Part shown: positions 17,391 to 21,038 of the stretch, piece after piece | How the letters are laid out: the number at the start of each line of letters is the position of its first letter | Numbering within the stretch: position 1 is the first letter of the stretch | DNA from: Dyella psychrodurans | GTDB lineage: Bacteria; Pseudomonadota; Gammaproteobacteria; Xanthomonadales; Rhodanobacteraceae | Direction: 5' to 3' | Assembly (NCBI RefSeq): GCF_003363265.1 | Contig: NZ_QRBF01000001.1 | Coordinates: 776,451-840,450, forward strand | DNA length: 64,000 nucleotides | Translations under genes and position numbers: made by a program | Notes under the pieces: model-generated | The model's input: the letters and a program-made list of their open reading frames with translations, nothing else | What the model was told of the DNA's origin: nothing | Databases searched by the model: none

Positions 17391-19067
17391 TCAACTCAAG
17401 GTATCGAGCGCGTGACTGTGTACGCCCTTCACGGCACGCCCTGACGGATCGGCCATGTTGGCAAATGTCGGGTCCCATGCGAGTGCCGCGGGCGACGAGC
17501 ACGCAATCGATTTGCCGCCCGGCACCGTCGCCGCGCAGGCTTCGCCCGGAAAGTGCTTCTCGAAAATGCGGCGGTAGAGATAGGCCTCTTTGGTCGCCGG
17601 CGTGTTGAACGGATAGCGCGACGCGGCGGCCGCAAATTCACGATCGCTGATCGCCTGCTCGGCGTGGGCTTTCAGTCCATCGATCCAGCCATAGCCGACG
17701 CCATCGCTGAACTGTTCTTTCTGCCGCCACAGGATCGACTCGGGCAACGCGCCCTGGAACGCCTCGCGCAGCACGGCTTTTTCGATGCGTCCCTTGCCCG
17801 CCATCTTGCGCGCCGCATCCATGCCCATGGCCACTTCCATGAATTCCAGATCGAGGAACGGCACGCGCGCTTCCACGCCCCAGGCCATCATCGATTTGTT
17901 GGCGCGCAGACAGTCGTAACTGTGCAGCGCATCGATCTTGCGCACGGTTTCTTCATGGAAGGCTTCCGCGGACGGTGCTTTGTGGAAGTAGAGATAGCCG
18001 CCGAAAATTTCATCCGCGCCTTCGCCCGACAGCACCATCTTCACGCCCATCGCCTTGATGCGTCGTGCGAGCAGATACATCGGCGTGGATGCGCGAATGG
18101 TCGTGACGTCGTAGGTCTCGATATGGCGGATCACTTCCGGCAATGCATCCAGGCCTTCCCAGAAGGTGTAGACGAATCCGTGATGCACCGTGCCCAGGGC
18201 ATCGGCCACGACTTTCGCTGCCGCCAGATCGGGCGAGCCCGTCAGGCCGATCGCGAAGGAGTGCAGTCGCGGCCACCAGGCTTCGCTGCGATCGTCGTCC
18301 TCGATGCGTTCGCGTGCGTAGCGGGCGGCGCACGCTGCAACCAGCGACGAATCCAGTCCGCCTGACAACAGCACGCCATAGGGCACGTCCGTCATCAACT
18401 GGCGATGCACCGCCTGTTCGAAAGCTTGCCGCAGCTTGGCCGGCGTGGGCGATTTGTCTTTCGTCTCGGCGTAATCGCGCCACGGGCGATGGTAGTAACG
18501 CTGCAACGCGCCGGTCGTGCTGTCGTAGACATGTCCCGGCGGAAACGGTGCCACATCGGCACACACGCCTACCAAGGCTTTCATTTCCGAGGCCACGCAC
18601 AGCCTGCCGTGCGAATCGTGGCCCCAGTAGAGAGGACATACACCGATTGGATCGCGTGCAATCAGATAGCGCTGCGCATCGCCATCCCAAAGGGCGAACG
18701 CGAAAATGCCGTTGAGCTTGCCGAGAAAATCGGCACCGTGTTCCAGGTAGAGCGCATTGATCACTTCGCAATCCGACCCGGTCGTGAAGTCGTAATCGCT
18801 CTTGGCGCGCAGCTCGCGGTGGTTGTAGATCTCGCCGTTCACCGCCAAGGCCAGCTTTCCATCACGCGAGCGCAGCGGCTGCGCGCCGCTGGCCGGGTCG
18901 ACGATGGCCAGGCGCTCGTGCACCAGGATCACCCCGGCGTCCACGAACACCCCGCTCCAGTCCGGCCCGCGATGGCGCTGACGCTGCGACAGCTCCAGGG
19001 CCGACAGGCGTAATGCAGCGAGGTCGTCGCCGGGCTGCAGGTCGAACATTCCGAAAATGGCACACAT
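17391..19067 (-). CDS. asnB: Asparagine synthase (glutamine-hydrolysing)
   Basis: Makes asparagine from aspartate with glutamine as nitrogen donor and ATP. The 558-residue protein begins MCAIFGMF, so Cys2 is the N-terminal nucleophile of the glutaminase domain, followed by RHRGPDWSG, NGEIYNH and GSDCEVI. The synthetase domain has the PP-loop LLSGGLDSSLVAA, LSGEGADEIFGGYLYFHKAP and the VEARVPFLDLEFM block. Length matches E. coli AsnB (554). It is preceded by an Asn-rich leader peptide and a strong terminator between leader and start codon, arranged as a transcription attenuator. Regulation by asparagine supply is therefore likely. Confidence 0.96.
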   Translation of the reverse strand: MCAIFGMFDLQPGDDLAALRLSALELSQRQRHRGPDWSGVFVDAGVILVHERLAIVDPASGAQPLRSRDGKLALAVNGEIYNHRELRAKSDYDFTTGSDCEVINALYLEHGADFLGKLNGIFAFALWDGDAQRYLIARDPIGVCPLYWGHDSHGRLCVASEMKALVGVCADVAPFPPGHVYDSTTGALQRYYHRPWRDYAETKDKSPTPAKLRQAFEQAVHRQLMTDVPYGVLLSGGLDSSLVAACAARYARERIEDDDRSEAWWPRLHSFAIGLTGSPDLAAAKVVADALGTVHHGFVYTFWEGLDALPEVIRHIETYDVTTIRASTPMYLLARRIKAMGVKMVLSGEGADEIFGGYLYFHKAPSAEAFHEETVRKIDALHSYDCLRANKSMMAWGVEARVPFLDLEFMEVAMGMDAARKMAGKGRIEKAVLREAFQGALPESILWRQKEQFSDGVGYGWIDGLKAHAEQAISDREFAAAASRYPFNTPATKEAYLYRRIFEKHFPGEACAATVPGGKSIACSSPAALAWDPTFANMADPSGRAVKGVHSHALDTLS

Positions 19068-19099
19068 GACAGTTTTCCCTTTGCTCGGTGGTGAAGCGT

Positions 19100-19134
19100 A
19101 AAAACAAAAGGGCCCGCACTTGGCGGGCCCTTTT
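19100..19134 (-). terminator. Intrinsic terminator between asnB leader and asnB
   Basis: On the minus strand the 12-nt arm AAAAGGGCCCGC (19134-19123) pairs perfectly with GCGGGCCCTTTT (19117-19106) over a 5-nt loop, and a T-rich tail (TTTTGTTTTT) follows. It ends 33 nt before the asnB start codon, so it would block asnB unless prevented from folding. This is the position of an attenuator terminator (3:4 stem). Confidence 0.9.
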
Positions 19135-19187
19135 GCGTGTGTAGGTTGGTTGCTTCGTCTACACGCCGGCCCGCCCGTGATTACGGG
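19122..19187 (-). promoter_or_regulatory. Putative antiterminator and pause stems of the asnB attenuator
   Basis: GGCGGGCC (19175-19168, codons 39-41 of the leader peptide) is exactly complementary to GGCCCGCC (19129-19122), the upstream arm of the terminator, giving an 8-bp all-GC antiterminator. A competing 5-bp hairpin CCCGT-AATC-ACGGG (19187-19174) overlaps the same arm and the last Asn codon. The three mutually exclusive stems follow the 1:2, 2:3, 3:4 logic of his and trp attenuators. Confidence 0.7.
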
Positions 19188-19290
19188 TATTGTTATTGGC
19201 GTTATTATTCAGGCCGTTCGCAGCCACGACCGCGTTCGCCGGCAGAATGGCGGCGGTAAAGGCGATGTGGCGGACGACGAAAGCGTTCAT
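19159..19290 (-). CDS. Asn-rich leader peptide of asnB
   Basis: A 43-codon reading frame from the ATG at 19290 to the UAG at 19161-19159. Ten of 43 residues are Asn, and the core is GLNNNANNNTRN (residues 26-37), where seven of ten positions 28-37 are Asn. A ribosome stalled at the Asn codons 28-34 would stay upstream of the antiterminator arm at 19175-19168. A ribosome reaching the stop codon would cover that arm. This geometry favours asnB expression when charged tRNA-Asn is scarce. The ribosome binding site is weak (GTGG only), and GTG or TTG starts upstream in the same frame are possible. I see no convincing promoter. It lies divergent from the porin gene. Confidence 0.75.
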   Translation of the reverse strand: MNAFVVRHIAFTAAILPANAVVAANGLNNNANNNTRNHGRAGV

Positions 19291-19538
19291 GGCCACGACT
19301 ACATCACAAGGCGTAGCGGCGCGCAAGCTGTAACACGCCCGATACAACCACCCGGCGGAACCCCTTCACACGGGCTTATCGTCCATGTTGCTCATACTTC
19401 TCCCAAACGGCCTGCTCCAGGCTGATGCCCTGTCCAAGGGCCTTCGGGGACAACGCAAGTCATCGCGCCATATCGCACTTTGCATCGTCTGACGATTCGT
19501 CTTTCGGATCTTCCGCTCATTCGAATAAGGAGCGAACG

Positions 19539-21038
19539 ATGGAACGGCTAAAAGGCATGACCGGTTTGCTGATGTTGATCGCCCTCTCGCCAGCGTTCGC
19601 GCAGGACGATACCCACAAGCTGCAAAAGGAAGTGGACGACCTGCAGGCCACCGTGAAAGAGCTGCAGGCGGAAGTAAAGGAACTGAAAGCCGAACAGGCG
19701 AAACCAGCACAAGCGGCCACACCGCCATCGGCAACTTACACATCAGCGCCACCCGCGACGGCGACACCTGCCGCCGCGCTGACCCAGGTGCCGGGTAACC
19801 AAGTGGATGTCATTCAACTTGGGGAGGCGGCACACACGCCGCTGCCCGCCCAGCAAAGCGTTTCGGAAAACGCGGATTCGGCCTCGCGCATCGACAACGA
19901 GGCACCGCCCACCGACCCCGGTCTCAAAGGATTCGTGCAGATTCCCGGCACCGAAACAGTCATAAAGCTGGACGGCTACGCCAAGCTCGACACGATCTAC
20001 GACATCCACAGCATCGGCACGCCGGATTTCTTCGCCACCTCGGCGATCCCCGTTCCGGCGCCGCACGACAACAACGGCAACTTCAACATGCAGGCGCGCC
20101 AGACCCGTTTCAGCCTGGATATACGGCGCCCAGCGGTTTTCGATGAAAGCATGCGCTTTTACGTCGAAACCGACCTCTATGGCGGTGGCAACGGCAGCTA
20201 CGGATTCAGGTTGCGCCAGGCCTACGGTCAGCTCGGCAATACCTATGCGGGTTTTGGCTGGTCGGCGTATACGGACACCGACGCCCTGCCCGACACGTTG
20301 GACTTCGCCGGCCCCGGCGGTGCGATTGCGCCGCGACAGGCGGGCATCCACCAATTTTTCCGCCTGGGTGAAACAAGCAGCCTGACCCTTGCCGCCGAAC
20401 AGCCTTCATCGGAAGTCAGTGTGTACCCGCAGGTCGCACCCGATATCGTCGTCAACAACCTGCATGGCACGCAACACGCACCCGACGTCATCGTCGCGGT
20501 CCGCACCGAGCACAACTGGGGTCATCTGCAGTTGGGCGGCGTAGTGCGACAGCTGGGTTATACCGACGGCGAACAAAGCAGGCGTGTGATCGCAGGCGGC
20601 GCGTCATTGACCGGTTCGTTCAAGGTGGGAACGTTCGCCGCCTACAGCGACCTGCTGATGTTCGGCAGCAACTGGGGCAAAGGCATTGCACGCTACATCG
20701 CCGATACCGGGGGGCTCGGCCTCGATGCCGTGGTCGGTCCCGATGGCAAGCTGTACACACTCACGGGTTGGGGTGCCTATGCCGCCTATACGCACTACTG
20801 GAGCAGCAACTGGCGCAGCAATCTGGTCTACGGCGTTGCGCGCATCCAGCACTCGCCCTGGCTGGCGCCCAACGACTATCACGATACCAACTATGGCGCC
20901 GCCAATCTGATCTGGACGCCGGCGCCCATGCTTACCGTGGGCCTTGAAGTGCTGCATGGCCGACTGTTGGAGCAGGACACCCGCTACAACGATGACACGC
21001 GCATCCAGGGTTCGCTGCAATACAGCTTCATCAAATAA
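19539..21038 (+). CDS. DcaP-like outer-membrane porin
   Basis: A 499-residue outer-membrane protein. The start at 19539 follows AAGGAGCGAACG. It has a signal peptide (ending AFAQ) and then an N-terminal coiled coil (LQKEVDDLQATVKELQAEVK, continuing to residue about 55), as in trimeric DcaP porins. A Pro/Ala/Thr linker and a barrel follow, starting at IKLDGYAKLDTIYDI and ending in the typical aromatic-rich strand RIQGSLQYSFIK. DcaP-type porins import dicarboxylates and other small anions; the substrate here is unknown. It is divergent from the asnB leader. Confidence 0.88.
   Translation: MERLKGMTGLLMLIALSPAFAQDDTHKLQKEVDDLQATVKELQAEVKELKAEQAKPAQAATPPSATYTSAPPATATPAAALTQVPGNQVDVIQLGEAAHTPLPAQQSVSENADSASRIDNEAPPTDPGLKGFVQIPGTETVIKLDGYAKLDTIYDIHSIGTPDFFATSAIPVPAPHDNNGNFNMQARQTRFSLDIRRPAVFDESMRFYVETDLYGGGNGSYGFRLRQAYGQLGNTYAGFGWSAYTDTDALPDTLDFAGPGGAIAPRQAGIHQFFRLGETSSLTLAAEQPSSEVSVYPQVAPDIVVNNLHGTQHAPDVIVAVRTEHNWGHLQLGGVVRQLGYTDGEQSRRVIAGGASLTGSFKVGTFAAYSDLLMFGSNWGKGIARYIADTGGLGLDAVVGPDGKLYTLTGWGAYAAYTHYWSSNWRSNLVYGVARIQHSPWLAPNDYHDTNYGAANLIWTPAPMLTVGLEVLHGRLLEQDTRYNDDTRIQGSLQYSFIK

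Follow-up and report, generated by a model that had tools for sequence, protein, structure and literature searches.

A predicted asparagine-responsive attenuator leader upstream of asnB in Dyella psychrodurans and its relatives

We analysed a stretch of 64,000 nucleotides from the genome of Dyella psychrodurans (hereafter the window, meaning the whole stretch), in which asnB lies on the minus strand and encodes a glutamine-hydrolysing asparagine synthase B. The product matches the models NF006949 (868.4 bits) and TIGR01536 (443.3 bits) as well as the Pfam families Asn_synthase and GATase_7. Among the 80 named loci, the best of 437, the closest AsnB proteins are those of Dyella, with up to 93% identity, and those of two differently labelled MAGs, with 94%. 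Between asnB and its putative promoter lie a short Asn-rich reading frame and a predicted intrinsic terminator. The features are listed below in the direction of transcription.

19321-19326, minus strand: putative -35 element TTGCGC, 36 nt 5' of the leader AUG; its TTGC is conserved in position
19298-19303, minus strand: putative -10 element TGTAGT, 17 nt past the -35 element and 7 nt before the AUG, from sequence
19159-19290, minus strand: leader reading frame of 43 codons with 10 Asn, stop codon TAG at 19161-19159, from sequence and conservation in relatives
19189-19209, minus strand: predicted sensing codons 28-34 (NNN A NNN), from Asn codon usage in 135 leader tails and the stall model
19174-19187, minus strand: hairpin 1:2, CCCGT-AATC-ACGGG, overlapping the antiterminator arm by 2 nt
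19161-19175, minus strand: antiterminator arm 2, comprising GGCGGGCC (19175-19168) and GCGTGT (19166-19161), up to the first base of the stop codon
19135-19140, minus strand: ACACGC, predicted antiterminator partner of GCGTGT (helix 77% paired over 56 aligned rows)
19122-19136, minus strand: arm 3, the 5' arm of the terminator, including GGCCCGCC (19129-19122), which also pairs with arm 2
19100-19117, minus strand: arm 4 and T-tract of the predicted intrinsic terminator
17391-19067, minus strand: asnB, 558 amino acids

The initial annotation had reported a 43-codon leader with 10 Asn, seven of them within residues 28-37, and the re-read translation is the same, with Asn at positions 2, 19, 25, 28-30, 32-34 and 37. 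The pattern of the Asn run, AAYAAYAAYNNNAAYAAYAAY, has a single match in the 4.54-Mb genome, which is this leader, and the reversed-pattern control has 0. A His-run pattern was set aside as too common to be useful (101 places). Three leaders were tried against NCBIfam and gave no match, and the leader of the window has no match in Pfam. A divergent gene on the plus strand (19425-21038), with a weak match to DcaP / Porin_2 outer-membrane proteins, adjoins the asnB leader.

The 12-bp GC-rich terminator annotated before asnB is present: the stem AAAAGGGCCCGC / GCGGGCCCTTTT is followed by GTTTTT, and it reaches 14 bp when one extra C-G and one G-T pair are counted. The T-tract had been placed 33 nt before asnB, and this needs a small correction, as we measured 32 nt from its end to the asnB ATG. 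The segment GGCGGGCC is, as claimed, the exact reverse complement of GGCCCGCC, the last C of which sits in the terminator loop. With a second helix, GCGTGT:ACACGC, the predicted antiterminator is longer than the 8 bp first noted. The small competing hairpin proposed over the last Asn codon is real as well; it starts just past the Asn run and carries Asn-37 in its loop. Neither the promoter nor the terminator was picked up by a simple promoter/terminator scan, whose two terminator matches equal the shuffle mean.

One script was applied to 161 asnB upstream regions (the window, L031-L110, L111-L150 and L152-L191). Of all frames it selects the one whose last 22 codons are richest in Asn, requires at least 3 Asn there, and seeks a stem of at least 6 bp with a T-tract within 110 nt past the leader. 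For the named loci the top 80 of 437 were used, with L001-L030 uncounted except for the window itself, and a further 20 f1 genomes and 60 genomes of the order were hand-picked for spread. Group 1 comprises AsnB proteins at least 71% identical, in families f1-f3 (a grouping by identity, not by a tree, with the named loci taken as f1), and the 21 remaining loci form group 2, a negative control. From the titles of the named loci, we take f1 to be Rhodanobacteraceae and f2 to be probably Xanthomonadaceae.

Conserved Asn runs upstream of asnB in relatives had been proposed as a check, and they are found: an Asn-rich leader with a terminator precedes asnB at 135 of the 140 group 1 loci, the window included, and at 1 of the 21 group 2 loci, these locus counts not being independent because of kinship among the genomes. 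In f1 the proportion is 91 of 94, and the three misses (L054, L070 and L105) are on contigs with just 60, 123 and 250 nt upstream. In f2 and f3 together it is 44 of 46; one miss, L175, has no Asn leader upstream of asnB, and the other, L177, has a leader with 7 Asn and a hairpin that looks interrupted, so that no terminator was scored. An additional f2 locus outside the 161, L194, also has the Asn leader. In group 2, none of the three f10 loci (AsnB identity 69-72%) has leader and terminator, and among the 18 loci with AsnB identity of at most 67% the only positive is L181, a candidate; all the others in group 2 have at most 3 Asn per frame. The frames at two loci outside both the order and the 161 (L192 and L193, f132) contain 3 and 4 Asn and do not resemble this leader. 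Class-wide, such an AsnB (E <= 1e-100) was found in 6 of 370 genomes; this order accounts for four, among them the genome of the window.

At the L181 locus (f8, AsnB identity 66%), a frame of 22 codons carries 4 Asn and a strong terminator stands 27 nt before asnB; this locus is possibly a distant or independent case of the Asn leader. Counting it with the 135 group 1 positives, 136 loci have a predicted T-tracted intrinsic terminator 19-34 nt past the leader stop. Leader length varies from 20 to 48 codons, and some f1 loci have just 3-4 Asn in the last 22 codons (e.g. L101, L111-L114 and L128). As a sign of failure, the initial annotation had named relatives keeping the terminator without the Asn codons or the complementary arm; what we found is that all three are kept together and the rest of the leader drifts. 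The gap from terminator to asnB is about 30-60 nt in most Dyella loci and 100 to 384 nt in many Rhodanobacter-type loci (L042, L043, L045-L048, L057, L072, L074, L082, L088 and L090), and the long gaps often hold repeated inverted elements (GGCCATCCATGGCC-like).

The Asn codons are confined to one frame. In the last 22 codons of 135 leaders there are on average 6.24 Asn codons in frame vs 0.01-0.33 in the five other frames, the choice of the best frame by Asn inflating the Asn counts somewhat, for which group 2 is the control. They are concentrated between 9 and 17 codons ahead of the stop, and 48 more stand at 7. Since AAT (388) and AAC (454) are both used in these tails and AAA (2) and AAG (5) are nearly absent, it is the amino acid that is under selection, not A-rich RNA.

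A TTGC lies 35-38 nt before the leader ATG in 123 of 135 loci (113 of these at 35 or 36), compared with 1-5 loci in background windows of equal width; where there were several candidate ATGs, the choice was made by a position matrix, a possible bias on this spacing. Among loci with a single candidate ATG, 75 of 80 also have TTGC at 35-38 nt. When hexamers starting 11-15 nt before the ATG are ranked by their match to a -10 element (3 of 6 positions or more), the top one begins 12 or 13 nt before the ATG in 111 of 135 loci. From the position of this promoter, the transcript would start at the AUG or a few nucleotides from it. The lack of a good ribosome binding site, which had been regarded as a weak point of the leader, is general, as an SD-like motif precedes 12 of 135 leaders vs 111 of 136 asnB genes, and it fits a probable leaderless start.

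A similar layout is predicted elsewhere in the same genome, before a Thr-rich leader (L240 747-896), where TTGACA, 18 nt, TATCTT and 7 nt precede the ATG; its frame is rich in Thr and Ile, whereas that of the asnB leader is rich in Asn. This leader, at positions 160546-160695 of contig C10, precedes a gene whose match in PRK09436 is to the C-terminal half of the model, taken to be the homoserine dehydrogenase part, and it is a probable leaderless thr attenuator. A hairpin scan found no T-tracted terminator there, and the search for an ilv comparator found nothing.

The duplex of a leader with its own terminator arm averages -20.9 kcal/mol vs -14.3 for codon-shuffled leaders, with p<0.05 at 89 of 136 loci. 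There are two large arm classes, GGCGGGCC:GGCCCGCC with 95 loci and CCGATGCGGG:CCCGCATCGG with 18, and when arms are exchanged between them (at most 15 partners were sampled for each locus) the duplex weakens from -21.7 to -13.8 and from -22.5 to -17.3. Leaders of the CGCGC class (10 loci) pair at -16.3 with their own arms and more strongly, at -18.2, with GGCCCGC arms, so that the exchange test fails there. In the YGCACT class (13 loci) the effect is weak, with -16.5 for own arms vs -15.3 for GGCCCGC arms, and YGCACT arms with leaders of other classes give -16.9 to -18.2.

Between the two largest classes, arm 2 and the terminator arm change jointly, the bases of the terminator loop included. 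These loop bases are unconstrained by the terminator stem, yet they vary with arm 2. In the CGCATC class, arm 2 retains GATGCGG at 12 of 18 loci, to which this comparison applies (arm 2 is changed at the remaining six, which were not fitted): where the loop has GC, GC precedes GATG at 4 of 4 loci, where it has GG, CC or TC does so at 6 of 7, and there is one other (L150). In an alignment of the 18 CGCATC loci (A3, with L138 left out), the covariation score is 0.055 vs 0.022, and 0 of 500 shuffles reach it.

A second alignment (A1) holds 56 of the 91 f1 loci, near-duplicates removed. Pairing in it reaches 95% for antiterminator helix 1 and 77% for helix 2 (GCGTGT:ACACGC), and the covariation of the antiterminator is not clearly above shuffles (score reached in 38 of 500, other measures in 64-193 of 500) because the core hardly varies. 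For the terminator and hairpin 1:2 taken together, the covariation score exceeds all 500 shuffles in both f1 and f2, and it exceeds slid controls too. Seven core pairs of the terminator are invariant over the 56 rows of A1 and its outer pairs vary with compensation, and in hairpin 1:2 of f1 four of five pairs have changes on both sides and 62.5% of cells are paired. The initial annotation had proposed to look for co-varying 2:3 and 3:4 stems: the 3:4 stem co-varies as part of the terminator and 1:2 set, and the 2:3 stem co-varies between the two largest arm classes and within the CGCATC class, its covariation not clearly exceeding shuffles in f1 alone. In f2 the counterpart of hairpin 1:2 has Asn codons in its stem and loop, so that a ribosome on these codons would have to open the hairpin.

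We then folded the leader with a modelled ribosome whose footprint was assumed to extend 13 nt downstream. With the ribosome stalled at N29, N33 or N34 of the window leader, the full antiterminator is predicted to form in the RNA up to arm 3, with a folding energy of -25.6 to -24.8 kcal/mol. A ribosome at N37 reduces this to -9.6 and one at the stop codon to -1.3, so that the terminator remains; given this drop Asn-37 is too close to the arm, and in the model it is not a sensing codon. Across loci, with the stall placed at the final Asn codon that lies 9 or more codons ahead of the stop, at least 75% of the arm-3 core is paired at 119 of 136 with a stalled ribosome vs 3 of 136 with a ribosome at the stop; at 17 of 136 loci the stall model left the core below 75%. 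The claim that the spacing suits attenuation, with a stall at codons 28-34 freeing arm 2 and a ribosome at the UAG covering it, therefore agrees with the model at most loci.

When arm 4 is included, all modelled ribosome states and the full leader fold with the terminator. The switch would therefore have to be kinetic, as it is in other attenuators. Without a ribosome, the window RNA up to arm 3 takes the antiterminator fold, and hairpin 1:2 does not outcompete it, so that, by the model, this hairpin would not ensure that an untranslated leader terminates here. In this the predicted fold differs from the textbook attenuator, in which the 1:2 hairpin enforces termination without translation.

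Taken together, the asnB leader is very probably a ribosome-dependent transcription attenuator that responds to charged tRNA-Asn. Sequence comparison establishes the parts, their conservation, their covariation and their spacing; the transcription start, leaderless initiation, stalling, termination and response to asparagine we infer as follows. RNA polymerase would start at the leader AUG or a few bases from it, and ribosomes would begin directly on the leaderless RNA end. When asparagine is scarce, the ribosome would halt on codons 28-34 and leave arm 2 free, and arm 2 with the bases up to the stop codon could then pair with ACACGC and arm 3 as the antiterminator, allowing transcription into asnB. 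When asparagine is ample, a ribosome at the UAG would cover arm 2, and the terminator of arms 3 and 4 would halt transcription. An asparaginyl-tRNA synthetase (AsnRS) is encoded in 46 of 46 genomes tested, leader-bearing or not, so that tRNA-Asn charging can depend on free Asn, the product of AsnB; its presence does not tell the loci with the Asn leader from those lacking it.

Other explanations of the same parts were weighed against attenuation. The frame might encode a functional Asn-rich microprotein, with a terminator that merely ends its own transcript. The frame is indeed kept at most loci behind a promoter of conserved position, but what is kept is mainly the Asn run and the last codons, with an N-terminal part that drifts and a length that ranges over 20-48 codons; pairing with the terminator at the RNA level constrains those last codons, and neither the three leaders tried in NCBIfam nor the window leader in Pfam had a match, which leaves this explanation a very slim chance. 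That the Asn frame is an accident, with asnB under a constitutive or protein-regulated terminator or promoter, has a vanishingly small one. Terminator-like GGCCCGC hairpins are common in these genomes, as such an accident would need, but the Asn run is single in the genome and recurs at 135 of 140 comparable loci, its codons conserved together with the arms. Moreover, an RNA model of the leader scores 121.6 bits at this site vs 27.8 for the next best site in the genome, and among the ten model matches inspected in other genomes none exceeds 3 Asn codons in 11.

It might also be that the same parts exert their control chiefly through a different route, such as translational coupling, Rho or RNA decay, or that translation of the leader begins further upstream, at a start codon preceded by an SD, and is not leaderless. 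Some loci do have in-frame upstream ATGs, but loci with a single candidate ATG share the TTGC spacing in 75 of 80 cases, and the T-tracted intrinsic terminator stands 19-34 nt past the leader stop at each of the 136 loci scored; we give this set of alternatives a slim chance.

The remaining matches of the RNA model, whose search scored part of the first-look candidates (150 per genome), were set aside. In the window's own genome there were 18 others up to E = 10, and the three that were read (L199-L201) look like ordinary terminators with no Asn run. In 22 genomes with no leader seen, there were 30 matches (E up to 0.1) in 11 genomes, and the ten that were read (L223-L232) look like ordinary terminators too.

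No Rfam family accounts for the leader. In Rfam scans at the curators' thresholds, the matches in the window are three tRNAs elsewhere, with none at the leader, and 20 f2 loci have none. Lax scans gave nothing above threshold at the leader in the window and six relatives: in the window, Thr_leader scores 22.9 of 55 bits and Trp_leader 14.8 of 41, and the best scores among the relatives are 28.3 of 55 for Thr_leader (L094) and 24.3 of 41 for Trp_leader (L044). A weak asX2 hit at the window (13.1 of 70 bits) was dropped, as no family reached its cut-off in the 20 f2 loci. Judged by titles and the starts of abstracts, no Asn attenuator came up among the open-licence papers searched, a scope that excludes the main 2004 survey of proteobacterial attenuators and does not prove absence; the terms asparagine, Asn and asnB are absent from the main text of a study of Actinobacteria (PMC1262725).

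If the proposed attenuation is true, asparagine would join the amino acids sensed by classical attenuation, and the control of asnB would be explained in three families of one order. The loci, with stems that differ and a logic that does not, would also be a natural series in which to study attenuation by leaders of the leaderless type, an arrangement also predicted for the Thr-rich leader of the same genome. Another RNA-based response of Asn genes to uncharged tRNA-Asn is that of the Asn-specific T-box riboswitches of Firmicutes. These bind tRNA directly and have no leader peptide, whereas the asnB leader is predicted to exert its Asn control, likewise at the RNA level, through the translation of a leader peptide. 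The Rfam scans of the window found no T-box match.

For the leaderless start there is a precedent in the trpL RNA of Sinorhizobium meliloti (rnTrpL), which, according to PMC7298713, begins with the leader ATG and may act as a leaderless mRNA. The same paper describes bacterial leader peptides as usually shorter than 20 amino acids. The S. meliloti leader differs from that of asnB in its 14 amino acids and its response to Trp, with rnTrpL and the peptide peTrpL acting in trans. Modelled on these two, a broader idea would be that leaderless long-leader attenuators occur throughout the order, and that their terminated RNA of about 190 nt and their Asn-rich peptide of 20-48 residues act in trans elsewhere; we hold this to be unlikely.

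The closest likeness of the predicted asnB attenuator is to the classical his, trp, leu, ilv, thr and phe leaders of Proteobacteria. In both, a leader rich in the product amino acid is combined with predicted 1:2, 2:3 and 3:4 hairpins, a stop codon near arm 2 and an intrinsic terminator before the biosynthetic gene. The asnB leader differs from them in its Asn codons, its length of 20-48 codons, its probably leaderless start and, in the window, its weak 1:2 hairpin. On the present comparison we file it as an attenuator of the classical kind with a new amino-acid specificity, in which the leaderless start and the long leader would be a minor variation.
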